This document shows positions 18,245 to 42,618 of a DNA stretch of 64,000 bases, one piece after another. The notes beneath the pieces are model-generated. The model was not told the origin of the DNA and made no database searches. It saw nothing but the letters and a program-made list of their open reading frames with translations. Numbering within the stretch: position 1 is the first letter of the stretch; each line of letters begins with the position of its first letter. The stretch covers positions 806,001-870,000 of the forward strand of contig JAVJSV010000011.1 of the NCBI GenBank assembly GCA_040219235.1. The letters are read 5' to 3'. Made by a program: the position numbers and the translations under genes. This stretch comes from Rhodospirillaceae bacterium (lineage in GTDB: Bacteria; Pseudomonadota; Alphaproteobacteria; Rhodospirillales; Rhodospirillaceae).

Positions 18245-19060
18245 ATGGCCTTTAAGGTATTTGGCAGCGTGGCTCTGGTCACAGGCGCCAACCAGGGAAT
18301 TGGCAAAGGGTTTGTCGAAGTACTTTTAGAACGCGGCGCTGCTAAGGTTTATGCAACAGCGCGGCGGCCAGAAACGCTTGACGGACTAAAGGCTTTGGAT
18401 CCTAAGCGTGTGGCACCGCTCCGGCTTGATATTACTAATCCAGGTCTTAGAGCTGCGGTAAGCACGCAGTCGTTGGATGTCACACTGCTGATCAACAATG
18501 CTGGAATTCCTGGCAATCCCGCCGAGCCGGAAGAGCGACGCATTCTCTCGGCAAGTAAGCTAGACGACGCTAAACGCGTGATGGATACAAATATGTGGTC
18601 CCAGGCTGAGATGTGCCGACTTTATGCGAAGCGACTCATTGAAAATGCTAAATCGTCTGGGTCAGAAAGTGGCATTATCAATATCATTTCCATTGGGGCT
18701 TTGTTCTGTCTGCCCGAATATATGAGTTATTCCATAGCCAAGGCGGCGTATGCTGCCATGACGGCGGGGGTGCGTGCTGAACTGCATCGCGACCCGGTCC
18801 AGGTGGCGGGTGTTTTTACAGGTGCTGTTGATACGCGTTCTGCTGGTAAGGGGGATTATCCAAAGACCTCGCCGATGGAACATGCCCATGAAGTGCTGGA
18901 TGCAATGGAGGCCGGTGAGACCTCCATTTTTGCGGCTAAGATGGCAACAGACATTCGTGATCAAATACACGATGACCCAACAGCCTTCGAGGCACAGGTT
19001 ATTGAGCGCTTTTATACCAATCCGATTTCAGTCGATCCGGGAGACTATGCCAATGGTTAG
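18245..19060 (+). CDS. Short-chain dehydrogenase/reductase (cytoplasmic)
   Basis: A 271-residue Rossmann-fold NAD(P)-dependent oxidoreductase of the classical SDR type. The cofactor motif TGANQGIG is at residues 13-20, the NNAG motif at 84-87 and the catalytic pair Y162/K166 in YSIAK. It begins directly at the fold with no signal peptide. Start ATG at 18245 with a good AGGTGA site. It overlaps the next gene, a second SDR that carries an export signal, by eight bases, so the two are co-translated. It probably interconverts a hydroxyl and a ketone; the substrate is unknown. Confidence 0.9.
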   Translation: MAFKVFGSVALVTGANQGIGKGFVEVLLERGAAKVYATARRPETLDGLKALDPKRVAPLRLDITNPGLRAAVSTQSLDVTLLINNAGIPGNPAEPEERRILSASKLDDAKRVMDTNMWSQAEMCRLYAKRLIENAKSSGSESGIINIISIGALFCLPEYMSYSIAKAAYAAMTAGVRAELHRDPVQVAGVFTGAVDTRSAGKGDYPKTSPMEHAHEVLDAMEAGETSIFAAKMATDIRDQIHDDPTAFEAQVIERFYTNPISVDPGDYANG

Positions 19061-19868
19061 ATTTGCAAGATTAAAGCTCATTAGAGTTGCGTGCACAGCG
19101 CTATTTCTTGCGATCACTGCTTCGGGTGCGCAAAGCATGTCTGCCGCCGCACAGCAACCAACGGTGCTCGTGACCGGCTCTAACCGCGGGATAGGTCTGG
19201 AATTTGTCAGGCAATATGCTGAGAAAGGGTGGCAGGTCATCGCGACAACCAGGCGGCCTGCGCAGGCCGATGACTTGCAGCGCTTGGCCAAAGCACACAG
19301 CAATATTGCAATTGAACTTTTAGACGTGGCCGACGGTGACCATCTGGCCACCCTTGCAAAAAAGTATAGGGGTCAACCTATTGATGTTTTAATTAATAAC
19401 GCGGGGGTGTCTGGCGACTTTCAAGGTCCGGGGCAGAGCTTCGGGACCTTAGATTACACTACAGTTGATACCTTTATGAGCGTCAACGCGATTGGTCCTC
19501 TGCGTGTTACAGAGGCGTTTTACGAAAACATTAAGGCGGGTCAGCAGAAGAAGGTTGTCGCCATTACGGCGCTGCTGGGCGTACATAGTTTTAAGTATGG
19601 AAACTTTGATGGAGCGTATTGGTACAAAGTGAGCAAGGCAGCGATGAATGCAGCCATGTATAATCTAGCGCGCGAGGTCCTTAAAGACGGTGTTACTGTT
19701 GCACTTATTACACCAGGGGAAGTTGCTGTCGAGAAGGTTGAAAACCCTGGGCCCGAATTTATCTCGCCACAAGTTTCTATCAGCGGGATGATTGATGTGA
19801 TCGCTGCGCTAACACCTGATGATGCAGGCGCCATCATTCGTTACAACGGCAAGCGCTATCAGTTCTAG
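19053..19868 (+). CDS. Short-chain dehydrogenase with N-terminal signal sequence
   Basis: Also 271 residues. A basic N terminus and a hydrophobic core (about residues 9-27, ending GAQSMSAAA) look like a Sec signal peptide or membrane anchor. The SDR fold starts at about 36, with TGSNRGIG at 41-48, NNAG at 115-118 and catalytic Y191/K195 (YKVSK). I place the start at ATG 19053; ATG 19047 in the same frame is also possible. An NAD(P)-dependent enzyme with an export signal is unusual, because nicotinamide cofactors are scarce outside the cytoplasm. It may instead be anchored on the cytoplasmic face. Its partner gene overlaps upstream. Confidence 0.85.
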   Translation: MVRFARLKLIRVACTALFLAITASGAQSMSAAAQQPTVLVTGSNRGIGLEFVRQYAEKGWQVIATTRRPAQADDLQRLAKAHSNIAIELLDVADGDHLATLAKKYRGQPIDVLINNAGVSGDFQGPGQSFGTLDYTTVDTFMSVNAIGPLRVTEAFYENIKAGQQKKVVAITALLGVHSFKYGNFDGAYWYKVSKAAMNAAMYNLAREVLKDGVTVALITPGEVAVEKVENPGPEFISPQVSISGMIDVIAALTPDDAGAIIRYNGKRYQF

Positions 19869-19892
19869 AGCAATCTGCGACAATCAAGGCGT

Positions 19893-20723
19893 TTAGGCGT
19901 CGGGATTGGCAGTCATGCGATCCGGATGCTCAGACTCCAATCTGGCTTTGTACATTGGTGGCAGGTCCTTGATCGTGTTTAGTTTGGCACCAGAGGCATG
20001 CCAAATGACGTGCCCGGGTTGATCACCCATCTCCATCCAATCAGGCCAGGGCGAGAAAAACGTCGCAGAAAAAGTCGCTGGTATTTTTCGCACTTCTGGG
20101 TCGATGAAATGGTCTCTTCGGGCAAAATTGGTTTGTCGCTGTTTACGTGGTGGCGGTAAGCCCGGTGGATAGACGGTCTCGTTGTGAAGCCACACATAAT
20201 CTCCGGCGGCAGTCCACCATAACTTCAGTGGTTTATCTTCAATTTTATCTGCTGCCCAGGATGGTTCGACACCATCAACTGTATATAGAAACCCTCGTCC
20301 AGGTCGTCCGCCTTGCACGGCTGCAGGAACCTCTAAGGTTTTTCCGGTATAAGGGTTCTTCATGGTCCGCAGCCAGCCCCCTGTTTCGACATCAGTCATG
20401 AAAGAAACGGTATTTCCAGTGAACCAGTACCGCCCTTCTTCTAACTTTTTGGCCCAATACATCTCCATGCCCTGAAATGTCATAAGGGGGCGAGGGGCTT
20501 CTTCTCCGATAACGGCGAAAATTGTGCCGTTATAGTACCAGGGGCAATCTTCAGGATCGAGACTGGCTGACATTCTCAAAAGATTGCACAGATTACCTGA
20601 AGGCGATGTGACGTCCGGCAGATCGGCTGCTTGTGCTGTGTTTGGGAGATTTGCTGTTAATCCTGCAAATCCCATGAGTCCAAACCCTGTAAGTGTTTGC
20701 CGCCGTGAGAAAGGAGTTTTCAT
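19893..20723 (-). CDS. DUF1838 protein A, Tat-type leader
   Basis: One of three DUF1838 proteins in the window. The start at ATG 20723 is chosen over longer frames because an AGAAGG site precedes it and the leader then reads SRRQTL (residues 6-11) followed by a hydrophobic stretch, a twin-arginine-like signal. The mature part (about 33-276) has DVET at 111-114, NPYTGK at 123-128, PGH at 236-238, WH at 241-242 and K247, all shared with the other two copies. It is rich in Trp and Tyr. DUF1838 has no established function. Export in folded form suggests a cofactor or metal. It is divergent from the LytTR regulator. Confidence 0.85.
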   Translation of the reverse strand: MKTPFSRRQTLTGFGLMGFAGLTANLPNTAQAADLPDVTSPSGNLCNLLRMSASLDPEDCPWYYNGTIFAVIGEEAPRPLMTFQGMEMYWAKKLEEGRYWFTGNTVSFMTDVETGGWLRTMKNPYTGKTLEVPAAVQGGRPGRGFLYTVDGVEPSWAADKIEDKPLKLWWTAAGDYVWLHNETVYPPGLPPPRKQRQTNFARRDHFIDPEVRKIPATFSATFFSPWPDWMEMGDQPGHVIWHASGAKLNTIKDLPPMYKARLESEHPDRMTANPDA

Positions 20724-20878: not shown

Positions 20879-21940
20879 TTGACTCACTGGCGTGACACCA
20901 TAAGAATCCTTTTCACTAACGTATTTTGGATCAAACCAGTGGATAACGGCAGTGGAATCGGTCTTGTGGCGCAGTCAGCTATAAAAGATAGATTTAAAGC
21001 GCTTGGGAATGTCGCTTTTCCATTTATGTCCGGGCGGCAGATCGTAACATTTTACGTTCTCGTGCCGGTTTCAATTGGCGCAATTCTGGGCTGGTACCGG
21101 GCTGGTTATACGGCTGAGTATCCAATTGCGGTCTCGCTTTTTGAGTGGATTGCGAATTTCTTTGCTCTTTGGGTCGCCTTTGATTTGGGATCCCGGCTGA
21201 CAGCTTTTTTAATGCGGCCATGGACTCCACCGCTTTGGTTGATCTTGATTCTTGGTGGGCTCGCAGGAGTTGCGGTCAGTCGTCCGTTGCGCAGTTTCAT
21301 ACGTGATATGGCAGGCCATTTATCGCCAGGGATCAGAACTGACATTGGTTTTCCGCCTGACTTGATTTGGCAAGAGTTTGTGTTTGCGTATTTAGGTGTC
21401 ATTACTGTGCCCATTATGATTTGGGTGCTCGTAAATTATGTGTTCCACGAGGCCCTCCACCTACCTCGATACGGCTGTCATGGTCAGAAAAAGACACTAA
21501 TGCCAGACCCTATTCCCGTCGGCACTGAGTTTACGCAAAGGAACACGAATGCTGATCAGCGTCCTTTGCCCCTCAACGTGCATCCTCCAGAGTTTATGAA
21601 GCGTTTAACTGCGGGGACGGATGCTGAGATAATAGCCTTGCAGGCAGAAGACCATTACTTGCGTGTTTTTGCAGGAGATAAGAATGAACTGATCCGCTAC
21701 CGGTTTTCTGACGCGATAGACGAAGTCCATGGGCTGCCCGGTTTGCAAGTGCATCGGTCATTTTGGGTCAGCACGGTAGCCATAGAAAGTATAAGACGTG
21801 CTGGGCGGTCCTATGAGATTAAAATGACGAGCGGTCTTTCTGTGCCTGTGAGTCGCTCGTACCGTTACGCCCTTAAAGATGCAGGTCTACTGGACAAGTT
21901 TTTGGGTCGGGTTTCTAACAACGAGATGGTGGCTGACTAA
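20879..21940 (+). CDS. Membrane-bound LytTR-family transcriptional regulator
   Basis: Up to 353 residues. Three or four hydrophobic helices (about residues 53-72, 82-104, 116-132 and 165-190) precede a cytoplasmic LytTR DNA-binding domain (about 250-345) with LQAEDHYLRVFA, VHRSFWVSTVAIESIRR and VPVSRSYRYALKDAGLL. LytTR domains bind DNA through beta strands. The start is uncertain: the long frame begins with TTG at 20879 without a Shine-Dalgarno site, and GTG 20966 or ATG 21026 would also keep all helices. It is divergent from DUF1838 A and followed by an exported NTF2-like gene, so it is a candidate regulator of this region, sensing at the membrane. Confidence 0.82.
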   Translation: MTHWRDTIRILFTNVFWIKPVDNGSGIGLVAQSAIKDRFKALGNVAFPFMSGRQIVTFYVLVPVSIGAILGWYRAGYTAEYPIAVSLFEWIANFFALWVAFDLGSRLTAFLMRPWTPPLWLILILGGLAGVAVSRPLRSFIRDMAGHLSPGIRTDIGFPPDLIWQEFVFAYLGVITVPIMIWVLVNYVFHEALHLPRYGCHGQKKTLMPDPIPVGTEFTQRNTNADQRPLPLNVHPPEFMKRLTAGTDAEIIALQAEDHYLRVFAGDKNELIRYRFSDAIDEVHGLPGLQVHRSFWVSTVAIESIRRAGRSYEIKMTSGLSVPVSRSYRYALKDAGLLDKFLGRVSNNEMVAD

Positions 21941-21979: not shown

Positions 21980-22465
21980 ATGCGAATAAAGATGTTTTTA
22001 CTCACGATACTGTTTGGGTTCTCAATTTCTCAGACTGTTGTTGCTGATCCTATCTCAGATCAGGAAGTGCGCAGCATGATTGAGGGATTGCGAGTCGCTT
22101 CTTTAGAGCAAGATGCAGATGCCATGGTTGAGTTCTTCCATCCTGACCTCATTATGGCGCATCCAGGGCAAGAGCTTCAGCGTGGCCGGGATACGATCGA
22201 AGCCGCCATGCGGACGACAGTTGAGCAGTATTCCAAAAATCTAACGATTGAGATTGTGGATCTGGAAACCTACGGCGATCGGGGGCACCTCATGGTGCAG
22301 TCCTGGCATGACATTAAGGATATGAAGACGGGTAACAGGACGTTTGTCCCAATACGTGCTTTTATCCTCGTGCGTCGCAATGACGAGGGGCGCTGGCAGA
22401 TTTATAGAGACTTTGATCATGTGCCGCATCAGGGGTTTATCGATAAATTTTTGGTGTCTGAGTAG
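21980..22465 (+). CDS. Exported NTF2/SnoaL-like protein
   Basis: A 161-residue protein with a clear signal peptide (about residues 1-22, ending VVADP) and one NTF2-like domain: SDQEVRSMIEGLRVASLEQD, DAMVEFFHPDLIMAHPGQEL, then four strands ending RWQIYRDFDHVP. Members of this fold include ketosteroid isomerase, polyketide cyclases and binding proteins. The catalytic Asp pair of ketosteroid isomerase cannot be assigned here. AAGGAGA at 21967-21973 precedes the ATG. A strong hairpin terminator follows. Confidence 0.8.
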   Translation: MRIKMFLLTILFGFSISQTVVADPISDQEVRSMIEGLRVASLEQDADAMVEFFHPDLIMAHPGQELQRGRDTIEAAMRTTVEQYSKNLTIEIVDLETYGDRGHLMVQSWHDIKDMKTGNRTFVPIRAFILVRRNDEGRWQIYRDFDHVPHQGFIDKFLVSE

Positions 22466-22547: not shown

Positions 22548-23678
22548 TTATTCAGCAGCCGCCTTAGCTGAAGCTTTTGGCGCAACAGTCGGTACCGCTT
22601 CAATGGTCCAACCCTTGGTCTTGCGTCGCGCTGGGCTCGGGATTGCAAATGCTTTTTCCTCACGCAGCTGGTCCACTTTAGCCGTATCAATGCGCCATCC
22701 TTGGCTTTCCCATTTGGCAATGAATTCGCGGTAGCGGTTCACCACATTATCAGCTTTAACCAGAACTTCTTCTGTCGAGGACTGTGGTGTGTAGAACGGT
22801 TCAATACGCTCGATCACAACCTTATCCTGCATCATCACGGCTGAATTGCGTTCATTAATCGTCTCATCCATTTCAGCATCGGTCCTGAAATTTCGCGCCT
22901 GAAGGAAGAAGCGCTTCAACGTTTTCTCATCAACGGGAGTAGAGAAGCCATACTGGTGGGCCCAAGCAAATGGGCTGAAGTGTAGTTTTGTCCAAGCGCT
23001 TGAGGGGCCGTGGTTGCCGGCTCCAGCTTCCATTTGGCCTTCGCCTTTTAGCCCTTTCATCTTAGAGTCTGGGAGGTCGGGTGACTCAAAAACTGTCATT
23101 GTGCCGCATCCCCACTGTTCTTCGATAAGCTTTAGGTCTGGGACATAATAGTCGTCACGGTCTCCTTGATATCCCATTGAAGGGTGTACGAATTCCGTAT
23201 GTGCAGGGTCCAAGGTGTTCTCGACAGCACGTTGATAGTTTGCTGTCCACTCATAGACTTGCGTGGTGACGCGCCAACCTTCTTGGTCAAATTCTGGAAT
23301 ATCCATAATCGGGGGGCGTTCTGCTTCTGGCAGATCGCCAAGAAATGCGAAAACAAGGCCGTACTTTTCTTGTGTGGGGTAGCTGTCGACTTTCGCTCGA
23401 GCAGGAATTTTTCCATCAGCTCCGAGAGAGGGGATTTTAGTGCAAACACCATCGGCTCCTTTGAATTGCCAGCCGTGATAAGGGCACTCGATAGCATCCC
23501 CTTTAACTTTGCCATGCGCGAGAGAGGCCCCGCGGTGAACACATACGTTTGACAGGCAATGCACTTGGCCTGCGGAGTCACGGAAAACGACGAAATCAAA
23601 GCCAAGCATTTTTATGTGAACTGGTTCTTCTTTGACGTTTTCGCTCAAGTCAGCCACGTACCAGAAATTCATAAACAT
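22548..23678 (-). CDS. Rieske non-heme iron oxygenase, large subunit
   Basis: A 376-residue ring-hydroxylating or demethylating oxygenase component. The N-terminal Rieske [2Fe-2S] cluster has ligands C46/H48 (CVH) and C65/H68 (CPYH). The catalytic domain holds a mononuclear iron triad candidate, D157, H160 and H165 in NTLDPAHTEFVH. The compact single-subunit form resembles VanA, KshA and other alpha-only enzymes. An Ala/Lys-rich tail ends the protein. No reductase or ferredoxin gene is nearby, so electrons must come from elsewhere. The substrate is unknown; steroid, terpenoid and methoxylated aromatic substrates are all possible. Confidence 0.9.
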   Translation of the reverse strand: MFMNFWYVADLSENVKEEPVHIKMLGFDFVVFRDSAGQVHCLSNVCVHRGASLAHGKVKGDAIECPYHGWQFKGADGVCTKIPSLGADGKIPARAKVDSYPTQEKYGLVFAFLGDLPEAERPPIMDIPEFDQEGWRVTTQVYEWTANYQRAVENTLDPAHTEFVHPSMGYQGDRDDYYVPDLKLIEEQWGCGTMTVFESPDLPDSKMKGLKGEGQMEAGAGNHGPSSAWTKLHFSPFAWAHQYGFSTPVDEKTLKRFFLQARNFRTDAEMDETINERNSAVMMQDKVVIERIEPFYTPQSSTEEVLVKADNVVNRYREFIAKWESQGWRIDTAKVDQLREEKAFAIPSPARRKTKGWTIEAVPTVAPKASAKAAAE

Positions 23679-23842: not shown

Positions 23843-25351
23843 TCAATTTAAGATTATGTCTTCGAAAGCAATATAACCGAAGGTCTGATCGTATCCGTAC
23901 GTTCTCGGGCTTAAACCAACAAACCCAATATTTTCATGGAGAAAAATGCTTGGCGCCTGTGTGTGGTAATGGCGCATCACTTGTTGGCGCAGATCTAGGG
24001 CCGTGTCCGGGTCTGTTTCAGTCCAGGCGGCTTCAATGGTGGGTTGAATACTTCGGTCACAAAACCAAGGATCTGCTTTACGGCACGAATGAATGTTAGT
24101 CATCTGGATGGCATCCAGTATGGGGTAAGATCCCCACTGCAACGTAAACGAATCTGTTTCAATGCGACCCCGCACGAAGTCCATTAGGAATCGCATGACG
24201 GGACTCTGTTGAATGTCAACGTTCACGCCGATCCGGTTTAAATCGTCCGCCACGCGCTGCACAATAAGAGCCCCATTGGTGCCGCCGCCAGACGTCAGTA
24301 AGGTCATATCAAAGCCGTTTGGATAACCGGCTTCGGTGAGCAGGTTGCGCGCTAAGTCGGGGTCATATGCGTAAGGCTCTATGTTTGGATCAAACCCGTA
24401 GGCAGACCTGACTGCAGGCTGGCTAGAAACAACAGTTAATCCGCCGAGCAGAACATCAACAATCGTTTGTTTGTCGACAGCATGATTCAACGCTTGTCGC
24501 ACCCGTAGATCATTGAGGGGCGTTTCTTTGCCCTCTTCAAATTGCAACATAATTGAAAACGCTGCTCCGTCTTTAACCGATGCAATACTGCCCCCAATGC
24601 TTTTAAGAACAGAAAAGTCTTCGGGTGTTGTTTGATAGGCGGCATCTAGCCCACCGGATAGAATCGCTTGAATGCGGGATGAGGCATCGGGCAAGACGAT
24701 GAAATCTACGCCATCAATTTTCATGGGCCGCCAGCTTAACGGATTGGCATGGGTGATCGCGCGTCCCGGTTCCCAAGCCTCAACAATGAGAGGGCCAGTG
24801 CCGACGGGTGTTAAGGAAAACTGCTCTACCCCCATATCTTGCCAGGCTTTTGGATCGACGATTAAAAGGACAGAGGCGTATCTGGGTAGCATCGGTACGG
24901 GGGTTAGCGTTTTGATTTCAACAATCGTCGGAGTAATGGCGATTGCTTTGTCCAGGAAGTGGAAGTCCCGTCTTAACCCTTCGGTTTGTGGCCCCGAACC
25001 TGCGAGATAGTTACAGGTGAAGGCGACCGCATCTGAATTGAAGGGTTCGCCGTTTGAGAACACAACGTCATTTCGAAGGGTGAATCGCCATGTCAGTGGG
25101 TCGAGCAATTCCCATTGTGTCGCTAACCAGGGTTCAACTTCACCGTCTTTGGTGAGGCGGGTTAGGCCATCAAACACACCGCCAGTGAGTAGTATGCTAG
25201 GGGTTTGTATGTTGGAGAAAGCGTTGCCTTTCTCGGTAGGAAGCCCGCCGATTCCAATTCTGAGAATTTTTGAATTGTTAGCTTGTGCGTGAGCTGGGGC
25301 TATCGTTGTTGCGGCGAGTGAACTCAAAAGTGTCCGGCGCGCTATTTTCAT
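23843..25351 (-). CDS. ABC transporter substrate-binding protein, family 5 (peptide/nickel type)
   Basis: A 502-residue periplasmic solute-binding protein. The leader (ARRTLLSSLAATTIAPAHAQA) has a twin-arginine-like start and an alanine-rich cleavage region. The body shows family 5 features: GVFDGLTRLTKDGEVEPWLA, WRFTLRNDVVFSNGEPFNSDAV, LRVRQALNHAVDKQTIVD and LLTEAGYPNGFDMTLLTS. Relatives bind peptides, nickel chelates, glycosides or other solutes. No permease or ATPase gene is present in the window, so it is an orphan. It starts 24 bases after the TPR-glycosyltransferase stop and may be co-transcribed with it. Confidence 0.88.
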   Translation of the reverse strand: MKIARRTLLSSLAATTIAPAHAQANNSKILRIGIGGLPTEKGNAFSNIQTPSILLTGGVFDGLTRLTKDGEVEPWLATQWELLDPLTWRFTLRNDVVFSNGEPFNSDAVAFTCNYLAGSGPQTEGLRRDFHFLDKAIAITPTIVEIKTLTPVPMLPRYASVLLIVDPKAWQDMGVEQFSLTPVGTGPLIVEAWEPGRAITHANPLSWRPMKIDGVDFIVLPDASSRIQAILSGGLDAAYQTTPEDFSVLKSIGGSIASVKDGAAFSIMLQFEEGKETPLNDLRVRQALNHAVDKQTIVDVLLGGLTVVSSQPAVRSAYGFDPNIEPYAYDPDLARNLLTEAGYPNGFDMTLLTSGGGTNGALIVQRVADDLNRIGVNVDIQQSPVMRFLMDFVRGRIETDSFTLQWGSYPILDAIQMTNIHSCRKADPWFCDRSIQPTIEAAWTETDPDTALDLRQQVMRHYHTQAPSIFLHENIGFVGLSPRTYGYDQTFGYIAFEDIILN

Positions 25352-33688: not shown

Positions 33689-35122
33689 TTACTCTGCAGC
33701 TGCAGCTGCGGCGGTTTCCCAAGACAGGAATTTCTCGCCAAGCAAGCGACCCATGGTCAGGCAGCCACCGACACTGGATCCACCCAGGTAAGCATTACCC
33801 CAAATGCCCATGCCCAGCATTTCACCCCCGGCATAGAGATTTGGAATCGGTCTGCCTTTTTCATCCAGAATACGTAGTTCGTTATCGCAGGCTATGCCGC
33901 CAAAACTGACCACTGATAGAGCGTAGTGGCGTATGGCGTAGAACGGCGCTTTTTCAATGGGGGCGGGTGTGTGCTGGCGACGCCAGGCATCAGAGTTTAC
34001 CGCGCGACCTTTATTAAATTGCTCAACAGTTGTTTTTAGATTGTCTGCGGGCAGGCCGCATTCCTTCGCCAAACCTTCAATGGTGTCAGCGCGGCAGAAG
34101 TCGGGGTGAGTGGAGAAGGCGCGTTCGATCTTCTCGGCATCCCACTTCATGAAGAGCGGAGGAGCTTGTTCCCGAATGCCTTGGTCATAAATCACCCAAC
34201 AACTCCAGTCTGGTTGATTCATGATGGTCCGTTCGCGGAAATCCTGGCTTGTGGATTCTTCATTGAAGAATCTCCGCCCCGTATTGTTCACCATGATTTC
34301 CCAAGGCGCCCGCATCATTGGGACCGTGGCCGTGTGAATCCAGTAATCGTCGGGGTTGTCGATGTCGATCGTGCCACCGAAGGTCATAATGAGATTGTCA
34401 GCCAGCTGTACTTGAGCGCCTAATTTACGGGCCTGCTGAATGCCGTCACCTTTAGAGTGCTCGTAGGTGTAAACCCGTTTTGGCCGCCCATGGAATTCTT
34501 TCCAGAGTTCATCGTTGTTAGCGTAGCCACCGCAAGCCAACAAAGTTGTTGAGGCGCGAATCTCTTCACGGTCGCCGTTTTCAGTTTGAACGACGATACC
34601 GCCCACAGAGCCATCTGCGTCAACAATAAGGTCCGTCATCTTGGTTTTGAGGCGCAGCTCGACGTTGCCGTTATCGATTACGTTTTGAAAGGCTGGTTCT
34701 AGAACAGCGATATAGGCCCGACCGGCGTTGACTGGTGTTGTTAGTCGCGCTGTTTTGTAAGGCTCATGGCCCTGGCCAATGACCGGATTGCTTTCCGGGA
34801 ATTCCAAGCCAATAGACATCAACCAATCCAGCGTCTCACCTGAATTGTCCTGCCATAGCCGCATCTTGTCATACTCACCGGTGCCGTGGTTGATGTCGAT
34901 GGATTCATCAAAATGTTTCTGTGGTGAGTCATCTATGCCTTTGGATTTCTGCAGCTTTGAACCGGCTGCACTCATGGAGCCCGAAGACATATGAAGCGTC
35001 CCGCCCACCTTATCCGCAACATCGACGACCAATACTTTTGCACCGCGTTCTGAGGCCTTGATGGCTGCAGGGATGCCGGTTGTACCTGCGCCCACGATAA
35101 CGATATCCCACGGGTCTGCCAT
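33689..35122 (-). CDS. FAD-dependent oxidoreductase, fumarate reductase/3-ketosteroid dehydrogenase type
   Basis: A 477-residue flavoprotein. The N-terminal dinucleotide fold has IVGAGTTGIPAAIKASERGA and GGTLHMSSGSMSAAG. The C-terminal FAD segment is IPNLYAGGEMLGMG with GGSSVGGCLTMGRLLGEK. This arrangement matches the FAD_binding_2 family that includes fumarate reductase, 3-ketosteroid delta-1-dehydrogenase and related dehydrogenases. ATG 35122 is preferred over a longer frame because it directly precedes the fold and has GGGAGA upstream. No signal peptide. It probably adds or removes a carbon-carbon double bond next to a carbonyl; the substrate cannot be read from sequence. Confidence 0.86.
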   Translation of the reverse strand: MADPWDIVIVGAGTTGIPAAIKASERGAKVLVVDVADKVGGTLHMSSGSMSAAGSKLQKSKGIDDSPQKHFDESIDINHGTGEYDKMRLWQDNSGETLDWLMSIGLEFPESNPVIGQGHEPYKTARLTTPVNAGRAYIAVLEPAFQNVIDNGNVELRLKTKMTDLIVDADGSVGGIVVQTENGDREEIRASTTLLACGGYANNDELWKEFHGRPKRVYTYEHSKGDGIQQARKLGAQVQLADNLIMTFGGTIDIDNPDDYWIHTATVPMMRAPWEIMVNNTGRRFFNEESTSQDFRERTIMNQPDWSCWVIYDQGIREQAPPLFMKWDAEKIERAFSTHPDFCRADTIEGLAKECGLPADNLKTTVEQFNKGRAVNSDAWRRQHTPAPIEKAPFYAIRHYALSVVSFGGIACDNELRILDEKGRPIPNLYAGGEMLGMGIWGNAYLGGSSVGGCLTMGRLLGEKFLSWETAAAAAAE

Positions 35123-35157: not shown

Positions 35158-36477
35158 TCACTCGCTTAGCGCTTGATAGACCAGTGCTTGAAAGGTGTCC
35201 CAAACGGATTCGGGCACCTGATCTGTTAGATTAATACGGTACTGAGTGAACATAATCATGGCCAGTCGATTGTCCCGGTCACCGAGGAAATAGATATCTG
35301 CCAGGCCGTCCTTCATGAAAGATTCCGCAGTGGCTGGGCGCATTGCGGCTGTCGGGTCATCCAACACGTTTAGACCCCAGCCATAAGTGTAGCCTGAAAA
35401 AATACGCCACATATCCGATCCGGTTGGGTATTTGTCGCGAATCGGGGCGATTTCAGCAGGTATCTGACGGCTGGTCATCATGTCTACTGTGGCTGGAGAA
35501 AGCAGTTGGGTACCCTCTAATGTGCCCTTGTTCAGCAGCATCTGTGTAAACCGCAGCATGTCGCTGACGGTGGAGGTTAGGCCACCACCGCCTGAATACA
35601 TGGTGGCGTCTGCGTTTAAGTAATCACCGGACTTAGGCAGCCTATCAGTGCCGCGTAATAGCTCTCCGGCTGTGCCCAGGTCGTATCCCTCCACCAAGCG
35701 AGAGCGCTTTTCAGGGGGGACAAAGAACCCCGTGTCTGTCATTCCCAGCGGATCGAGCACCAAATCTTTGACTGCAGCTTCTAAAGGTTTTCCAGTCACC
35801 AATTCAATCACATGACCAAGCACATCGATGTTCAGGCCATATTCCCAATCTGTCCCAGGGTGAAACAAGAGCGGGATTGAAGCCAGGTAATTTAATCCAT
35901 CTACCATGGGAACGTTCAGACCCATAACCTGTTCACGATCGACTTTGAGTGCTTTGGGATAATCAAAGGCGTATCCAAGCCCGGCCGTGTGTGTGACGAG
36001 GTGGATCAGGCGGATGGAGTCTTGTGCGGGCTCCGTGAGTGGTGTGCCATCCTCGGCAAACCCTGTCAGTACAACGGGATTGGCGAAAACGGGGATATAT
36101 TTCTCTATGGGGTCGGCGAGATCAATACGTCCTTGCTCCATGAGCCGAAGCGCGGCAACGGTTGTGATGGGTTTGGTTAAAGAGAAGACACGAAAGATCG
36201 TGTCATCCGCCATAGGAATTTGGTTCTCGCGGTCCTGCCAGCCAACGGCACGCTGGGTAATCAGTTTGCCGTCACGCGCGACAGCATACACAAAGCCGAC
36301 CCGCTTTTGGTCTTCAACGAGCCGTGTCATACCTTGATGTAAGACATCCAAGAGGTCCTCGTTGAAGCCATACTTGGAGGCGTTACTAACTTCTCGGTCT
36401 AAATCCCCAGCATCTACGATGCCGGTATGCATGAAAAAGACCCCTGCGAGAAAAAGTGAGAAGGTAATTCTTCTCAT
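35158..36477 (-). CDS. Beta-lactamase-fold serine hydrolase 3
   Basis: A 439-residue member of the same superfamily as the tandem pair, but of a different subgroup. A signal peptide spans about residues 1-24 (ending GIVDAGD). SxxK is S99-L-T-K102, and the second motif region is DWEYGLNIDVLGH, typical of EstB/LovD-like esterases and transesterases. The ATG at 36477 forms an ATGA overlap with the DUF1838 C stop and has a GGGGGGA site; a longer start at 36489 is less likely. The flavoprotein gene follows 35 bases on, so DUF1838 C, hydrolase 3 and flavoprotein are one leftward operon. Confidence 0.88.
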   Translation of the reverse strand: MRRITFSLFLAGVFFMHTGIVDAGDLDREVSNASKYGFNEDLLDVLHQGMTRLVEDQKRVGFVYAVARDGKLITQRAVGWQDRENQIPMADDTIFRVFSLTKPITTVAALRLMEQGRIDLADPIEKYIPVFANPVVLTGFAEDGTPLTEPAQDSIRLIHLVTHTAGLGYAFDYPKALKVDREQVMGLNVPMVDGLNYLASIPLLFHPGTDWEYGLNIDVLGHVIELVTGKPLEAAVKDLVLDPLGMTDTGFFVPPEKRSRLVEGYDLGTAGELLRGTDRLPKSGDYLNADATMYSGGGGLTSTVSDMLRFTQMLLNKGTLEGTQLLSPATVDMMTSRQIPAEIAPIRDKYPTGSDMWRIFSGYTYGWGLNVLDDPTAAMRPATAESFMKDGLADIYFLGDRDNRLAMIMFTQYRINLTDQVPESVWDTFQALVYQALSE

Positions 36478-37361
36478 GCGTCCCCCCATGCCAAGACATC
36501 AGGAATATACTGCTCTGCTTGGTCAAGATATCCAGATGAGAGGTCATCGAAGCTTTTCATCTTGCTGCCGACGCAGTGCCATACTGAATGTCCGGGACGA
36601 TCACCCATTTTTAGAAAGCCTTGCCACGGGGCAAGGAACACAATCCCAAAAATAGAATCGACGCGCTCAAGTGAACGGTCTTGCAATTGTTTCAGTGGAA
36701 CGGTGGTTGTTCCATATTCAGCGAGGGGAATTGGGCGCACATCTGGATACTTACGCTGCCCGACCATTTGAACGTTATCGCCCATAATTGCCCAATCTAA
36801 TGTCAGCGCGCTGACCATGTTTGGGTCAATTTCAGCACTCCAGTTTTCACCTTTGGCGGCATTGGTGTCGCGCGCAAATTGTGCGCTTGTGACGCGTCCG
36901 TCATCACCAACATAGTATAAACTGCGCGATCCGATGATATTGGGAGCGACAAGGTTTTCTTCCCCGGTCCATGGATTGCGAAACATTTTCCCATTCAGAA
37001 TTTCGCCAGTCTCCGGGTCTTTAAAGATGGTCATGACCTTTGACCACACCTCATAGCGTCCATCGTCGAGCTGGATCACTTTTTTGGTTTCACAACTTTC
37101 GCAATCGAAAACGATTCTTGGATTCTCATCCGGTGGCACAGCAATGTAGTAACCGCGCCAGGCATTCGGTGCCGGCTTTCCGCTCAGGTCACCTTGGATT
37201 CTCATATAATTTCGCAGCTCATCAGCCGGGTTCGCATGCAAAGCAGATACACTAGCGGCGCGGCTTTGGTGGCTTTCAGTTGTCAGAGCTGCCGCTGCGA
37301 CTCCGCCCAAACCGAGGTTAAATCCCCGCCGCGACAGTATAGGTCCAGACAAAATCGACAT
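36474..37361 (-). CDS. DUF1838 protein C, Tat-type leader
   Basis: A 295-residue DUF1838 protein. The leader has SRRGFNLGLGG (residues 10-20), a good twin-arginine motif followed by an alanine-rich core. Family positions are DPET 115-118, NPWTGE 129-134, PGH 256-258, WH 261-262 and K267. It also has a CESC pair at 87-90 absent from copies A and B. ATG 37361 is chosen because AAGGAA precedes it at a six-base distance. Its stop overlaps the serine hydrolase 3 start by four bases: a second independent case of DUF1838 coupled to this hydrolase family. Confidence 0.87.
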   Translation of the reverse strand: MSILSGPILSRRGFNLGLGGVAAAALTTESHQSRAASVSALHANPADELRNYMRIQGDLSGKPAPNAWRGYYIAVPPDENPRIVFDCESCETKKVIQLDDGRYEVWSKVMTIFKDPETGEILNGKMFRNPWTGEENLVAPNIIGSRSLYYVGDDGRVTSAQFARDTNAAKGENWSAEIDPNMVSALTLDWAIMGDNVQMVGQRKYPDVRPIPLAEYGTTTVPLKQLQDRSLERVDSIFGIVFLAPWQGFLKMGDRPGHSVWHCVGSKMKSFDDLSSGYLDQAEQYIPDVLAWGDA

Positions 37362-37490: not shown

Positions 37491-38168
37491 ATGACTGATC
37501 TCTCTGACAAAGTGGCCTTTGTGGCCAATGCGGAAACTGCCGTAGGCAAGGCGTGTGTTGCGGCGCTGATGCAGGCGGGTGCTCAGGTGTGTGCGGCGGG
37601 CATCTGCGATGCTGCCCTTGTTGTGAATGTGACGCCGGGGGATCAGGACTCCTGGGATCAGGCGTTTCGTGACTGTATAGACCAACTCGGCGGGTTAGAT
37701 GTTTTGGTTATTCCTACGGTTGGTCAGCCTTCTGAATCTATAAACTCTATTGTGTACGCTGATTTTAAAAAAGCCCATCGAGAAATGGTCATTCCAGCGT
37801 TCCTTGCACAAAACCGGGGCGTGCTTGCGATGCGCTCGACGGGCTCGACTGGAGCCATCGTCCACATTCTCCCTGCCGTGGCGCGCGCGGCCAAGGAAGG
37901 CGCTGTTGCAGCATGCACAGCAAGCGCAGGCATTTTGTTTTCGGCAAAGTCTGCAGCGTTGGAATGCGCGAAAGCGAAAGACGGCATTGTTATTAATTCG
38001 GTCTTGGTTGGCGATGTCGATGGCCAGCCGTCGCTTAACTACAAATCAGACTCACAGGTTATTCCACCTGAGGCCATCGCTAATGCTGTGTTGTTTTTCT
38101 CAACCGATGGTGCGGTCTACATGAGTGGTATGGACTTGCCTGTCGATGATGGATTTCTGGCCACATGA
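37491..38168 (+). CDS. SDR-fold protein lacking cofactor and catalytic motifs
   Basis: A 225-residue protein that follows SDR topology (MTDLSDKVAFVANAETAVGK at the N terminus, an ending AVYMSGMDLPVDDGF like the usual SDR C terminus). The TGxxxGxG motif is replaced by ANAETAVG, NNAG by IPTV, and the YxxxK region reads ACTASAGILF with neither Tyr nor Lys. The frame is intact, so it is not a broken gene. It overlaps the next gene, a fully equipped SDR, by ATGA. It may be a non-catalytic partner in a heteromer, as known for some fatty-acid and NodG-like SDR pairs. Confidence 0.78.
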   Translation: MTDLSDKVAFVANAETAVGKACVAALMQAGAQVCAAGICDAALVVNVTPGDQDSWDQAFRDCIDQLGGLDVLVIPTVGQPSESINSIVYADFKKAHREMVIPAFLAQNRGVLAMRSTGSTGAIVHILPAVARAAKEGAVAACTASAGILFSAKSAALECAKAKDGIVINSVLVGDVDGQPSLNYKSDSQVIPPEAIANAVLFFSTDGAVYMSGMDLPVDDGFLAT

Positions 38169-38992
38169 ATGCTGTGACTCATTCGAGCCAATTGGCAGGT
38201 AAGGTGATTTTAATCACCGGCGGCACCTCTGGTCTGGGGCGTTGGACGACGCTTGTCATGGCGGCGCAGGGCGCAACGGTCGTTTATTCCGGCCGTAATG
38301 CTGAGGGCGCGGCAGAGACAGACCAGCGCTTAGAGGCCGAAGAGCTCAGCGCTCAATATCTTCCACACGATGTGACCAGTGAAGAAGATTGGCAGAGAGT
38401 CATAAATACCGTGATGGAGAAACATGGCAAGCTTGATGGTCTCGTTAATAACTCTGGCGTGTCCCGTCTTAAGCCTATGGATCAACTCTCCTTAAACGAT
38501 CTTGAGTTTCTGCTTTCGGTCAATGTGGATGGTATGTTTCTTGGCACCCAACACGCCTTCCGCGTTATGAAAAATACTGGTGGGTCCATCGTTAACATCT
38601 CGGCTTTGAATGCGTTGCGCGGATCACCGAATTCTACCGGTTATGGTATGGCCAAGGCTGGGACGACGCATCTGGCGCGGGCGGCTGCGATCGAAGGACG
38701 GAAGTATGGTATTCGGGTGAACGCGGTTCATCCTGGTGTTCTCTTTGAAGGTGGAGATAAGCCTTCACCCGGCGCGATTTCTCTCTTTGGAGAAGAAGGC
38801 GCGCAAAAATTTGTGCAATTCAATATCGATACAACACCACTCGGTCGTCTGGGGCACCCGCGCGATATCGGAACAGCAGTTGCCTTTTTGCTTTCAGATG
38901 CTTCACGCCACGTCACGGGTACGGCTGTTTGCGTTGACGGTGGCCGCATGGCCGGTGAGTTCCAACATCATGGAATCAAGTCACAGAAGTAA
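38165..38992 (+). CDS. Short-chain dehydrogenase/reductase (active-type)
   Basis: A 275-residue classical SDR. TGGTSGLG lies at residues 18-25, NNSG at 95-98, catalytic S146, Y160 and K164 (YGMAK). After the PG motif (AVHPGVLFEGGDK) comes a long substrate loop, then GRLGHPRDIGTAVAFLLSDAS and the C-terminal VDGGRMAG. It forms a coupled pair with the catalytically empty SDR upstream. A VOC-family gene follows 17 bases later. Probably oxidises a secondary alcohol of the pathway substrate. Confidence 0.92.
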   Translation: MNAVTHSSQLAGKVILITGGTSGLGRWTTLVMAAQGATVVYSGRNAEGAAETDQRLEAEELSAQYLPHDVTSEEDWQRVINTVMEKHGKLDGLVNNSGVSRLKPMDQLSLNDLEFLLSVNVDGMFLGTQHAFRVMKNTGGSIVNISALNALRGSPNSTGYGMAKAGTTHLARAAAIEGRKYGIRVNAVHPGVLFEGGDKPSPGAISLFGEEGAQKFVQFNIDTTPLGRLGHPRDIGTAVAFLLSDASRHVTGTAVCVDGGRMAGEFQHHGIKSQK

Positions 38993-39008
38993 TCCGGGGA
39001 GGATTCAA

Positions 39009-39575
39009 ATGACCAGGCCCTTCAATTCGAAAGCTGCATTGATTGTTATTGGCATGGCGATCTCAGGCAGTGCCGGTGCAGAAGATATGAATCATCAAAG
39101 CTTACTCCTTCGCTCTGTGGCTGTAACGTGCAAGGTCGAAGAGTCGATCACGTTTTACCGTGATGTTATGGGCCAAGAGATCATCGAAGATGTCACGTTC
39201 GAGGGATCTGGTATTCAGAAATACATTGATGTCGCAGATGGCGGCAAAGTCCGCTTTGTCATTATGGGTGGCTCTGGTGTGTATCCCGGCGGTCAAGTGG
39301 TCGGCGGCAATATCGCCTTCATGGGCATCGTTGACGTCGGTGATCCGGCTTGTGCGGGTGAGGTTGAAAACCATCGTGGCCGTCAAGGCTCGACCATATT
39401 GCCGCACCGGGTCAGTAACATTGATCAAATTGCCAAGCGCGCTAAGGCGGCAGGGCATGAAATTCTTTTTGATATCAAAGCCTCTGGTACAGGCTTGTCG
39501 CGCAACATGATGCTGTTTGATCCCAACGGAAACATTGTCGAGGTGTTTCAGATCAACACAGCGGTTATTAAATAG
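39009..39575 (+). CDS. Exported VOC/glyoxalase-fold protein
   Basis: A 188-residue protein with a signal peptide (about residues 5-24, ending GSAGAED) and one or two VOC modules: LLRSVAVTCKVEESITFYRDVMGQ opens the fold and SRNMMLFDPNGNIVEVFQI closes it. VOC enzymes bind a divalent metal and include glyoxalases, extradiol dioxygenases and isomerases. ATG 39009 is set by GGGGAGGA eight bases upstream and by the leader. Exported VOC proteins are uncommon. It is the last gene of the run beginning at 37491. Confidence 0.82.
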   Translation: MTRPFNSKAALIVIGMAISGSAGAEDMNHQSLLLRSVAVTCKVEESITFYRDVMGQEIIEDVTFEGSGIQKYIDVADGGKVRFVIMGGSGVYPGGQVVGGNIAFMGIVDVGDPACAGEVENHRGRQGSTILPHRVSNIDQIAKRAKAAGHEILFDIKASGTGLSRNMMLFDPNGNIVEVFQINTAVIK

Positions 39576-39663: not shown

Positions 39664-39687
39664 TATTCTGTTAAGGAGCATTTGGTC

Positions 39688-41511
39688 GTGCGTATTCAAG
39701 CTGTGGAGAAGTGGCTCCAGACCTGTTTTGCAGTGCTTCCGTTTTTGACGTGCCTGTCCCCTGTGGTGCAGGCGGACAGTCGTAAAGTCGGTGTGCTGTT
39801 TGTGGTGCACGGCGGAACAACGTCTACAGACATCGAAGCCCTGTGGGACAGTTCGATGCAGATTTTTGCCTACGACCCACATTCGGCGATTTATCAGCGT
39901 GTCATTTGGAACGCGCAGGCGTGGCCAACTGTGGCGTCTTTTGGCGACGGTCAAAGCTACAGCAATGTCGCCTCACAATTGGACAAATATGAGTTCGGCG
40001 ATGCGCGGATCGGTGAGGATCCCAGTGAACGTCAGGCTTCACAGCAGATGTCCGATCTGGCAACGGCGCTCAAACGCCGCGAATCTGAACTGGGTGTTAC
40101 ATTCATTGTCGATAAGGCGCAGTGGATTGGTCCTGTTCATCAAACCAAATACTTGCCTGACCCTAGGCACTTGTATGAACCGCAAGTCGAGGGCGGCACC
40201 CGCTTAACCTACTGCGGCAGCGCAACTGACCGAGGTCCGTGGAAAGATTGTGATTCACAGCGCTACAATGTGGATGGCCCGGCAGAGCGTCTTTTGGCGC
40301 AAGGGGTTGAGAGTATCGTTATGATCGATATGACGACAGCAGGGGTTAGGTTCTGGAAAACCTACGATGTCGTGCGCGTCACCCGGGGCGTGGTTGCTCG
40401 TCACAATGCTAAGCACAACACAAATGTGAATGTGAGCTGGGTCAATGACCCAACTGATCTAATGCGGGACTCCTATCCGGTTGAGCCTGCAAACTGGACA
40501 CGCAGTCTCGGTCCGCCTGAGAAAGATAGCGTCGTTCCTCTAGAGGGGCGCCCCGCGCCGGTCACCGAGGACCCGGCCTTTGCAAATCTATACCTCAAAG
40601 GCATTGAACAGCGGTTTAACCCGAATGTTTCTGAGAAAGACACGGCTGTTTTACTGCTCAATCATTCTATTCGGGATGGCAATGAAGTGTATGACCCTAA
40701 AGTCAATGACACGGTTAATCTCAACGCCCAACTCAAAAAATCTATTTTACGCGCCCATCCTGAAATTGATCCGGAGAACATCATTGCTTCCTGGATGGGC
40801 TTGCGGGTTGAGAATCCTAATATCAAACTGGGTGGACGGGTTCGATCTAACCTGGAGCGCTCCCGCGAGATGCGGGCCGAAAATCTTGGACATCGGTGGC
40901 TCTATGAAACCGATAAAATGCCGCCCGCGGGCGACCAAAAATATTTTTATTGGGAAGGTCTTGAGTACCTCAAAAATCGCGGAACTAAGCATATCGTTGT
41001 TGTGTTTACCCAGGTGGTTATTGACTCCGTTTTGACCCTGGTCGAAGTGCCAAATCAAATTGGCAAAGAAATCGGTACGCAAACATGGTTGTTTGCTGAA
41101 GCGGGTGATTTCACGCGCTACCCTAATCACGGTCATCCCTTTGCTGATTACTGGGGCCGTCAGGCCGAAACCATGTGTCGTCCGGTTGGCGCACCGATCA
41201 CAGCAGAACGCACGGAACCATGTTGTTTCGAAATGGGGGGGTGTGGCACAGGGCAGCCCTATCCGCCGTTACGTCAGACCCCCATAGATCAAGCGATGCA
41301 GGATACTGACCCGCATTTGGTTTACGATCTCTCGGCTTATGGTCATCTGGGGTATGATGCGACCAAAGGTCCACCGCGTGATGTCGCGCCTGTGCAGTCA
41401 CAATATACGGGCACTTGGGCCATGTGGCAGCCGATCAGCGGCGACCCGCGCATGGGAGTCTTCTTAGCAGAGCAGGTGGTGCGCCACATACGCCGTCAAT
41501 CCAGTCTTTAG
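39688..41511 (+). CDS. Exported 607-residue protein with ferrochelatase-like features
   Basis: I do not recognise this as a named family. A leader of about 25 residues ends VVQADS. The mature protein opens with KVGVLFVVHGGTTS, resembling the first strand and loop of chelatase-fold proteins. Near the C-terminal third, HIVVVFTQVVIDSVLTLVEV resembles the conserved ferrochelatase stretch around PxFxxDxxETLxE. It has a CCFEMGGCGTG cysteine cluster near residue 520. GTG 39688 is chosen because AAGGAG (39673-39678) is nine bases upstream; TTG 39682 is too close. Next to a CpcT-like gene, a tetrapyrrole role is an inference. Confidence 0.7.
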   Translation: MRIQAVEKWLQTCFAVLPFLTCLSPVVQADSRKVGVLFVVHGGTTSTDIEALWDSSMQIFAYDPHSAIYQRVIWNAQAWPTVASFGDGQSYSNVASQLDKYEFGDARIGEDPSERQASQQMSDLATALKRRESELGVTFIVDKAQWIGPVHQTKYLPDPRHLYEPQVEGGTRLTYCGSATDRGPWKDCDSQRYNVDGPAERLLAQGVESIVMIDMTTAGVRFWKTYDVVRVTRGVVARHNAKHNTNVNVSWVNDPTDLMRDSYPVEPANWTRSLGPPEKDSVVPLEGRPAPVTEDPAFANLYLKGIEQRFNPNVSEKDTAVLLLNHSIRDGNEVYDPKVNDTVNLNAQLKKSILRAHPEIDPENIIASWMGLRVENPNIKLGGRVRSNLERSREMRAENLGHRWLYETDKMPPAGDQKYFYWEGLEYLKNRGTKHIVVVFTQVVIDSVLTLVEVPNQIGKEIGTQTWLFAEAGDFTRYPNHGHPFADYWGRQAETMCRPVGAPITAERTEPCCFEMGGCGTGQPYPPLRQTPIDQAMQDTDPHLVYDLSAYGHLGYDATKGPPRDVAPVQSQYTGTWAMWQPISGDPRMGVFLAEQVVRHIRRQSSL

Positions 41512-41583
41512 GCTTGCCAACTTGAGACTTTCTCTTTCTCCCTCTTCGTTTTAGGCTTATTTGAGCATTAGGGGAGGGTTGTT

Positions 41584-42618
41584 ATGCGTAACGTAATCAT
41601 TGCTGTTATAGCGCTGGCGTTTGCGGCGCCTGCTTTTGCCACAAATTCAAAACCAGAGTTGGCTAAGGTCCTTGAGGATCTGATGGCTTGGCTTCCTGGT
41701 GAGTATACTTCTATTCCACAAGTCTATCTGGAGCGAGCACTCGGCGCACCGCCCGATGGAGAGCACGAGATTTATCATCGTGTCTTCGCGGAAATAGAAG
41801 CACCTCATCTTGGTGAGCATGTGATCTATACACAAATTCGTTTGGATGGCGACGACGGCACAATTTTTCCGGGCCAGCAGCAGGTTTTCTTGATTTCGAT
41901 TGATGAAGAAAAACGCACCGTCGCTATATCAGGACGACGTATCATAGACCCCGAGAATTATGTTGATGCTCACCTCCATCCTGAGATGTGGTCGAGCATT
42001 GAGCCAGATCCAGATTTTGGCGGAAACTGTACATTCAATTGGCGGCGTCATGGCCAGCAACTCCGCGGGCTTTTGGGTGATCATGGTCAATGCACAATGA
42101 TTTCAAAGCGATCCGGCCAGGAAATGACATGGGACGCCGAGTGGATTTTGAATCCGGATCAGCTCTGGATTTACGACAACGGCACTCTGGCAGACGGAAC
42201 GTTGTTTGCCGGGCGTGAAGATCGCACGCATCTTCGTATGTCCAAGGCGCAGCGATATGAATGCTTTACCTCAGTCCGCTATCCCGACGGCACGTCGCAG
42301 GTGTTCAACCCGTTTTTTATGCACAACCGTGGGGATGTGTTCACGTTTGAAACGACTGAGCCCGAACCGCGTAAGCTGCATGTTGAGTTTCTAACCTCGT
42401 TGTGGCCGTCTAACTCGGGCCGCAATTATGTCGACCTTATGCGGCTGACATTGCACGATGGCGCGCCCGGAAATTATAAAGACGAAGATGTCCTGGGATT
42501 CGCCTGGGCAGAGCCGACTAGCAACCGCGTTGGCTTTACGACGGAATGGGCCAGTGCGCGATGCAAGCTCGCTAACCCAGATGACCCAAGATTTAGGGCT
42601 GCAATGTCAGGCCAGTAA
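41584..42618 (+). CDS. Exported CpcT/CpeT-like protein
   Basis: A 344-residue protein with a signal peptide (residues 1-19, AAPAFA). The rest follows the CpcT/CpeT pattern: LEDLMAWLPGEYTS near the start, EIYHRVFAEIEAPHLGEHVIYTQ, CTFNWRRHGQQLRGLLGDHGQC in two parts, then WILNPDQLWIYDNGTLADGTLFAG and AQRYECF. In cyanobacteria CpcT attaches bilins to phycobiliproteins. Homologues in other bacteria have no known function, and no phycobiliprotein is here. An extra C-terminal domain (about 230-344) lies beyond the usual CpcT end. It lies 72 bases after the ferrochelatase-like gene. Confidence 0.75.
   Translation: MRNVIIAVIALAFAAPAFATNSKPELAKVLEDLMAWLPGEYTSIPQVYLERALGAPPDGEHEIYHRVFAEIEAPHLGEHVIYTQIRLDGDDGTIFPGQQQVFLISIDEEKRTVAISGRRIIDPENYVDAHLHPEMWSSIEPDPDFGGNCTFNWRRHGQQLRGLLGDHGQCTMISKRSGQEMTWDAEWILNPDQLWIYDNGTLADGTLFAGREDRTHLRMSKAQRYECFTSVRYPDGTSQVFNPFFMHNRGDVFTFETTEPEPRKLHVEFLTSLWPSNSGRNYVDLMRLTLHDGAPGNYKDEDVLGFAWAEPTSNRVGFTTEWASARCKLANPDDPRFRAAMSGQ

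Follow-up and report, generated by a model that had tools for sequence, protein, structure and literature searches.

Which substrate is handled by the proteins encoded at positions 18245-42618 of a 64,000-nucleotide stretch of DNA (the window) from a Rhodospirillaceae bacterium (GCA_040219235.1, contig JAVJSV010000011.1) is the question raised by this locus. The initial annotation had read the block as a catabolic cluster, seemingly undescribed, with some exported products, in which three proteins of the DUF1838 family (PF08894) were the unexplained component. This description is supported by our analysis, and linkage of the genes is conserved in near relatives. The proposal that the 24-kb region is the system itself has to be revised, as about 30 regions of the host genome contain DUF1838 genes, the block being one of these. 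Our reading, held tentatively and at a little under an even chance, is that a lineage-specific catabolic toolkit for a pigment-like substrate has one of its loci here. The toolkit, apparently undescribed, is built around DUF1838, an unstudied exported family.

The PF08894 profile matched 46 times in the host genome (3.97 Mb, 21 contigs) and not at all in 14 control genomes. With an iterated profile, 43 DUF1838 genes were identified in the stretches around the own-genome matches. All seven genomes of the host genus contained 28-47 matches. Within the GTDB family DUF1838 was detected in 19 of 73 genomes, belonging to six of 23 genera, with 3 to at least 36 matches per genome (E ≤ 1e-5; minimum counts wherever candidates exceeded 33), and in none of the other 54. 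An order sample of 199 genomes held two carriers, both from the host's family, and a class sample of 385 genomes held seven, the own genome included.

The presence of DUF1838 predicts that of a PuuE-like subfamily of imide hydrolases and, within the host's family, that of CpeT (PF06206). CpeT was found in 17 of the 19 DUF1838-bearing family genomes versus one of the other 54; among 14 known genomes used as a control only Synechococcus elongatus matched. Similarly, a family of alpha/beta-hydrolase-fold proteins carrying GxHTG instead of the GxSxG nucleophile motif was represented in each of the 19 genomes by 5 to at least 29 matches (lower bounds where more than 34 candidates were present). A single match was seen in 13 of the 54 genomes lacking DUF1838, all 13 from genus g20. 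The DUF1838, CpeT-like and nucleophile-less alpha/beta-hydrolase families were amplified together in six genera of this alphaproteobacterial family. The model of the imide-hydrolase subfamily was made from 14 proteins near DUF1838 in 10 named loci, so it is built from DUF1838 neighbours, and its 300- and 360-bit lines were chosen after the scores had been seen. Matches above 300 bits were present in 19 of 19 DUF1838 genomes versus two of 54 others; at genus level, the fairer test for the family since close relatives are not independent, this was six of six versus one of 17 (P 7e-5). In the class sample all seven DUF1838 genomes fell within the 22 with a match of at least 360 bits, and at the preset E ≤ 1e-60 (127 of 385 genomes) P was 4e-4, or 1e-3 without the own genome; the DUF1838 and imide-hydrolase samples of 385 were taken as identical from their equal number and shared handles. 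In two class genomes (G346 and G421) DUF1838 and the imide hydrolase lie on one contig, about 4-7 kb apart.

Physical linkage was also observed in other lineages. The named loci, the best 80 of at least 494 confirmed DUF1838 stretches, include metagenome-assembled genomes (MAGs) whose titles give Rhodospirillaceae (Baikal also appears in two of these), Caulobacterales, Sphingomonadales, Kordiimonas, Gammaproteobacteria, Acidobacteria and Bacteroidota. Niveispirillum lacus 1-14 (L094), Brevundimonas bacteroides DSM 4726 and Pelagerythrobacter marinus H32 are carriers for which a strain is named. Their genes were called by script, and family counts are blast clusters whose labels (RipB, DUF2269-like) are partly our own. 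Neighbours in these 80 loci included TonB families (33), CpeT (19), DUF1330 (16), ADH_N_2 (16), CaiB (11), imide hydrolase (10), CN-hydrolase (10), molybdenum hydroxylase (9), the LeuC/LeuD pair (6) and UbiD (6). L115 and L121 share the gene order TonB receptor, amine oxidase, DUF1838, CpeT, two imide hydrolases and amidase; L075 contains hydratase, lyase, imide hydrolase, amidase, TonB and DUF1838, and L107 contains DUF1838, CpeT, imide hydrolase and LeuCD. In other lineages, the genes that recur beside DUF1838 include those for CpeT, imide hydrolases and amidases as well as hydratases and lyases of dialkylmaleate type. Such a set fits pyrrole- or imide-derived substrates better than the steroid or terpenoid substrate first proposed, for which no specific support was obtained.

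In the host genome, a module of this kind is located on contig C12 (Table 1) and is surrounded by several VOC (vicinal oxygen chelate) proteins. The best PDB matches of its amidase are 4l07, an isochorismatase-family hydrolase, and an N-carbamoylsarcosine amidohydrolase, with 3ot4 and 3uao also matching; 4l07 and 3uao we take to be maleamate amidases. G016 has the module genes in this order as well, and G048, G050 and G065 have parts of the arrangement. A route from imide via half-amide, dialkylmaleate and dialkylmalate to cleavage would be chemically coherent. Nicotinate-type pathways are made up of the same enzyme families in a coherent order (imide hydrolase/PuuE, maleamate amidase, dimethylmaleate hydratase, 2,3-dimethylmalate lyase); what differs here is that, in other lineages, the module occurs with genes for TonB receptors, DUF1838 and CpeT. 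Other cyclic imides or N-heterocycles of pyridine, hydantoin or alkaloid type could be the substrates instead of tetrapyrroles, and the dialkylmaleate-type part would then resemble nicotinate fermentation. Such substrates are in line with a LeuD/DmdB protein scoring above its cut-off, a lyase matching 3fa3, an isochorismatase-family amidase and molybdenum hydroxylases in nine of the 80 best loci, but they leave the co-inheritance of CpeT and the CpeS/nitrobindin-like fold suggested for DUF1838 unaccounted for, and we regard them as improbable. The imide hydrolase HxnM is reported to be related to PuuE (PMC9304392).

Several other features were seen around these loci. In L056, L057 and L060 a DUF1838 pair occurs with a UbiD decarboxylase, a molybdenum hydroxylase, cytochrome c and CpeT; these gammaproteobacterial MAGs, like L115 and L121, have isolate names that look sponge-derived to us. 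A conserved family of 240 amino acids with the motif YTSxKPER..ERGRE recurs near imide hydrolases or DUF1838 (L219:1578-3098, L222:1459-2937, L070:17123-17839, L086:8258-8980); the one member tested had no Pfam match. Arrays of VOC-type proteins stand beside imide hydrolases, five in L217:11387-16893 and four in L221:4541-8931. The one tested lacked a Pfam match, and some have Tat-like (twin-arginine translocation) leaders by eye.

The DUF1838 proteins themselves are divergent. The three of the block score above the PF08894 cut-off of 25 bits, and 41 of the 43 paralogues could be aligned, with 12-52% identity to the first row; two short members were left out. This alignment was too divergent for scanning, and six close members were scanned instead (in alignments A1, A3 and A5, DUF1838 protein b is entered from two codons ahead of its ATG). 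Judged by a strict script, which also scanned as many as 40 codons ahead of the called start, 35 of the 43 proteins have a Tat-like leader, and two of the eight that fail have a properly placed RR. Besides the start and the leader arginines, the most conserved residues among the 41 paralogues are Gly, Pro, Met, Asn, Asp, Trp and Thr, and none of the 25 best columns listed holds His, Cys, Glu or Lys at 75% or more (Lys reaches 71%). Since these residues are missing from the conserved set, the alignment points to a scaffold whose pocket varies and not to a single chemistry. Sequence searches of the PDB gave no credible DUF1838 relatives. In an AlphaFold2 model of DUF1838 protein a (predicted local distance difference test 77.5, predicted template modelling score 0.75), CpeS was the nearest of the PDB chains compared and Ycf58 the fifth. 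We infer that DUF1838 is a secreted calycin-like beta-barrel, mostly Tat-exported in its own genome, that binds a hydrophobic ligand and whose pockets have diversified among dozens of paralogues.

The same divergence could mean that no single substrate exists, and that general catabolic enzymes and exported binding barrels underwent a genus-level expansion of paralogues directed at many refractory dissolved compounds, with a different ligand for every cluster. The low identity, the few conserved residues and partners that vary between loci are as expected from such an expansion. A shared theme is suggested instead by one imide-hydrolase subfamily, which is strictly co-inherited with DUF1838 both within the family and beyond it, and we find the expansion somewhat unlikely as the full account. 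In the literature searched, a single paper names DUF1838, as one gene, ArtU, of the aurantimycin cluster (PMC5031334); the passage concerned does not describe genomes with 28-47 matches.

The CpeT-like protein of the block is a borderline member of its family, with 22.0 bits in the whole-genome search and 20.3 bits for the translated gene alone against the PF06206 cut-off of 21; its blast-cluster homologue in L068 reaches 55 bits. By profile it would thus belong with the CpeT/CpcT bilin lyases, whereas the proteins found here are 174-414 amino acids long (23 members), have a secretion leader in most cases by eye and come from carriers that are not known phototrophs. No sequence similarity between DUF1838 and CpeT was detected, and CpeT was not found in the PDB by phmmer; the likeness of DUF1838 to CpeS/CpcS lyases is that of the predicted model. 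The CpeT-like protein is 74-76% identical to homologues in the gammaproteobacterial MAGs (L056:15132-16175, L057:8181-9224, L060:14360-15367), which lie about 4 kb from the DUF1838 pair, whereas identity to the syntenic orthologues from genus g5, which belongs to the host's own family, is just 53-56%, so horizontal transfer of the gene between classes is likely. Nothing relevant on CpcT/CpeT in heterotrophs was found among the matches listed from open-licence PMC literature; PMC10151467 reports bilin-binding globins in heterotrophs with no occurrence of CpcT.

The GxHTG proteins are unusual for their fold. The Ser of the GxSxG nucleophile elbow is absent from both proteins of the block, and the 22 members of the blast family have His (18), Ala (3) or another residue (1) at this position, and Ser in none. 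In cofactor-independent alpha/beta-fold dioxygenases such as HOD and AqdC, which act on N-heteroaromatic substrates, the catalytic Ser is reported to be dispensable or replaced (PMC10548524). The GxHTG family likewise has this Ser replaced, but mostly by His, and may possibly comprise cofactor-free oxygenases or lyases rather than esterases.

From these partners we infer a ligand, a substrate and an order of reactions for the toolkit. A pigment-like substrate would enter via uptake of TonB, major facilitator superfamily (MFS) or ATP-binding cassette type, and exported DUF1838 and CpeT barrels, the CpeT-like proteins being partners of the same kind, would capture or present it. The block would carry out the upstream chemistry of rings and side chains: beta-lactamase-fold esterases, short-chain dehydrogenases, the flavin adenine dinucleotide (FAD) reductase and the Rieske oxygenase would trim, oxidise and open rings, possibly together with the GxHTG proteins, which might perform cofactor-free oxygenation. 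Ends of alkyl-maleimide type would pass to the separate, co-inherited module of imide hydrolase, maleamate-type amidase, dialkylmaleate-type hydratase and dialkylmalate-type lyase. Tetrapyrroles (chlorophyll products, bilins, heme) would be the likeliest natural aquatic source of such ends. In its most specific form, which we rate as possible rather than probable, the proposal is that DUF1838 is a new class of secreted tetrapyrrole- or bilin-binding barrel (about 43 copies) that forms, with CpeT-like partners, cofactor-free alpha/beta oxygenases and the maleimide module, a previously unknown pathway mineralising chlorophyll, bilin or heme pigments in aquatic habitats. Several observations weigh against the assignment of the block to a pigment toolkit. 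The block contains no imide module, linkage inside the own genome is weak to modest, some DUF1838 loci contain UbiD or molybdenum hydroxylases, and steroid-enzyme models are the best, if distant, NCBIfam matches of the Rieske oxygenase and two beta-lactamase-fold proteins.

Chlorophyll and related pigments are made and destroyed in huge amounts, and the toolkit may be part of how bacteria consume old pigments. Among the matches listed from open-licence PMC literature, no gene-level bacterial pathway for mineralising chlorophyll-type pigments was found, no system of bacterial chlorophyll or maleimide degradation genes or of bilin catabolism was described, and nothing relevant was found in lake-related work. 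If the pigment reading is true, DUF1838 gains a role, CpeT genes in non-phototrophs are explained, and bacterial pigment turnover becomes testable through named genes and culturable strains. Even with another substrate, an exported family of 43 copies that is co-inherited with one imide-hydrolase subfamily would be a clear target for functional work.

Conservation of the cluster was analyzed from the region around the best homologue of the hydrolase at 27437. Apart from the host, 18 family genomes bear DUF1838, and this region was compared in all of them except G011 and G015, 16 in total. The near set comprised the six other genus members and G024 from a second genus (g11), the distant set nine genomes of other genera. 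In the near set the Rieske gene, at its syntenic place, the TPR (tetratricopeptide repeat) gene and the anchor hydrolase were present in all seven genomes, MFS and FAD genes in six, the 609-amino-acid gene and tldD in six (the G002 stretch ends early), DUF1838b and CpeT in five and DUF1838c in four, with gene order broadly kept and the cluster beside tldD-ctaA in six. In the distant set, where some stretches are cut by contig ends, Rieske was found in seven of nine, tldD in five, the 609-amino-acid gene and DUF1838b in four each and CpeT in three. The cluster is therefore real and old, while its parts come and go; scattering of the homologues without linkage is not what the seven nearest genomes compared display, as most orthologues stand together.

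The gene content of the block (Table 1) was assigned with Pfam, and open reading frames and starts were checked. The reading frames reported in the initial annotation were recovered, and Pfam agreed with its four short-chain dehydrogenases, Rieske oxygenase, MFS permease, VOC, SnoaL/NTF2-like and LytTR proteins, two odd alpha/beta hydrolases, three beta-lactamase-fold proteins, each with an SxxK motif, and three DUF1838 proteins. The translational coupling was real as well, with overlaps of 1 to 16 bases in six of 15 same-strand neighbour pairs. The CpeT/CpcT relative and the leader-bearing protein before it had been left unnamed; a family 5 solute-binding protein and a TPR protein are further members.

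The oxidoreductases and hydrolases bear on catabolism of a steroid, sterol or terpenoid, in which hydroxysteroid-type short-chain dehydrogenases, a KshA/SdmA-type Rieske oxygenase, a KstD-like flavoprotein and esterases would attack a polycyclic lipid. Enzyme superfamilies of aerobic steroid degradation (KshA, KstD) include the Rieske and FAD proteins, KshA chains appear among the PDB matches, and KstD models match the flavoprotein. Every steroid-model score is, however, far below its cut-off. The Rieske oxygenase (PF00355 85 bits; CxH..CxxH and DxxH motifs at residues 46 and 157) matches 4beta-methylsterol monooxygenase best, at 104 bits (cut-off 600), and two beta-lactamase-fold proteins match 3-succinylated cholic acid synthase best, at 60 and 74 bits (cut-off 800), whereas the third is nearest methyl acetate hydrolase (211.6 bits, cut-off 550). 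The flavoprotein, previously called ketosteroid-dehydrogenase-like, scores higher as flavocytochrome c/fumarate reductase (221.6 bits, subfamily cut-off 285) than as 3-ketosteroid dehydrogenase (185 bits, cut-off 789), below both NCBIfam cut-offs, and PDB matches favour the same assignment. With imide and amide hydrolases, dialkylmaleate-type enzymes and CpeT as partners of DUF1838 elsewhere, we consider a steroid or terpenoid substrate unlikely.

Table 1. Genes of the block in the window and of the imide module on contig C12 of the same genome.
Feature	Position	Strand	Evidence
Short-chain dehydrogenase 1	18245..19060	+	Pfam adh_short 94 bits
Short-chain dehydrogenase 2, N-terminus leader-like	19053..19868	+	Pfam adh_short 103 bits
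DUF1838 protein a, Tat-type leader (SRRQTL)	19893..20723	-	Pfam DUF1838 79.2 bits
Membrane LytTR regulator, start uncertain (TTG 20879 or GTG 20939)	20879..21940	+	Pfam LytTR 50 bits
SnoaL/NTF2-like protein, predicted exported	21980..22465	+	Pfam DUF4440/SnoaL_2
Rieske non-heme iron oxygenase (VanA/KshA/SdmA type)	22548..23678	-	Pfam Rieske and VanA_C
Family 5 solute-binding protein	23843..25351	-	Pfam SBP_bac_5 204 bits
TPR protein	25376..27325	-	Pfam TPR families
Alpha/beta-hydrolase-fold protein 1, GGHTG replacing GxSxG	27437..28273	+	Pfam and motif
Alpha/beta-hydrolase-fold protein 2, GFHTG replacing GxSxG	28273..29100	+	Pfam and motif
MFS permease	29107..30345	+	Pfam MFS_1 92 bits
Beta-lactamase-fold serine hydrolase 1	30368..31603	+	PF00144; SMHK at 116
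Beta-lactamase-fold serine hydrolase 2	31600..32805	+	PF00144; SMAK at 115
DUF1838 protein b, Tat-type leader (ISRRGVI)	32795..33664	+	Pfam DUF1838 26.7 bits
FAD_binding_2 flavoprotein, flavocytochrome c/fumarate reductase/KstD superfamily	33689..35122	-	Pfam, NCBIfam, PDB
Beta-lactamase-fold serine hydrolase 3, predicted exported	35158..36489	-	PF00144 219 bits; SLTK at 103
DUF1838 protein c, Tat-type leader (SRRGFN)	36474..37361	-	Pfam DUF1838 67.8 bits
Short-chain dehydrogenase 3, divergent	37491..38168	+	Pfam adh_short_C2 42 bits
Short-chain dehydrogenase 4	38165..38992	+	Pfam adh_short_C2 187 bits
VOC-superfamily protein, predicted exported	39009..39575	+	Pfam Glyoxalase 31 bits
609-amino-acid leader-bearing protein	39682..41511	+	Without Pfam/NCBIfam family
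CpeT/CpcT (bilin lyase) family protein, predicted exported	41584..42618	+	PF06206, borderline
Putative imide hydrolases, tandem	C12:446.9-448.7 kb		PuuE model 121 bits (cut-off 424.6), family relation only
Isochorismatase-family amidase, after the imide hydrolases	C12		PF00857
PrpB/dimethylmalate-lyase-type protein	C12		2,3-dimethylmalate lyase 3fa3 E 2e-49, behind CPEP-mutase and methylisocitrate-lyase entries
LeuD/DmdB-family small subunit	C12		TIGR02087 158.5 bits (cut-off 108.95)
LeuC-type large subunit	C12		hacA_fam, over cut-off

By eye, the 609-amino-acid protein had first suggested a ferrochelatase. This identity remains unproven: no Pfam ferrochelatase match was obtained in 10 homologues, NCBIfam and PDB (phmmer) searches were empty, and in hhalign the HemH profile ranked first of 60 families with only 11% probability (next 5.8%). 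Canonical HemH was not found in the DUF1838-rich genomes G013, G016 and G024 (86-100% complete), nor in G070. Its absence from the first three may reflect heme auxotrophy or an assembly gap, the latter because HemH is present in G014, a member of the genus that also contains G013 and G016. Near another DUF1838 gene of the own genome (L037:3699-5234, contig C12), a ferrochelatase-like protein of 511 amino acids with an N-terminal hydrophobic stretch is encoded (PF00762 19.3 bits; hhalign to ferrochelatase 60%). It was not used as support for a tetrapyrrole substrate, because its homologues in G013, G014, G016 and G024 lie in stretches where DUF1838 was not detected. The protein occurs in five of 41 genomes searched, the host (G000) and these four, all of which bear DUF1838.

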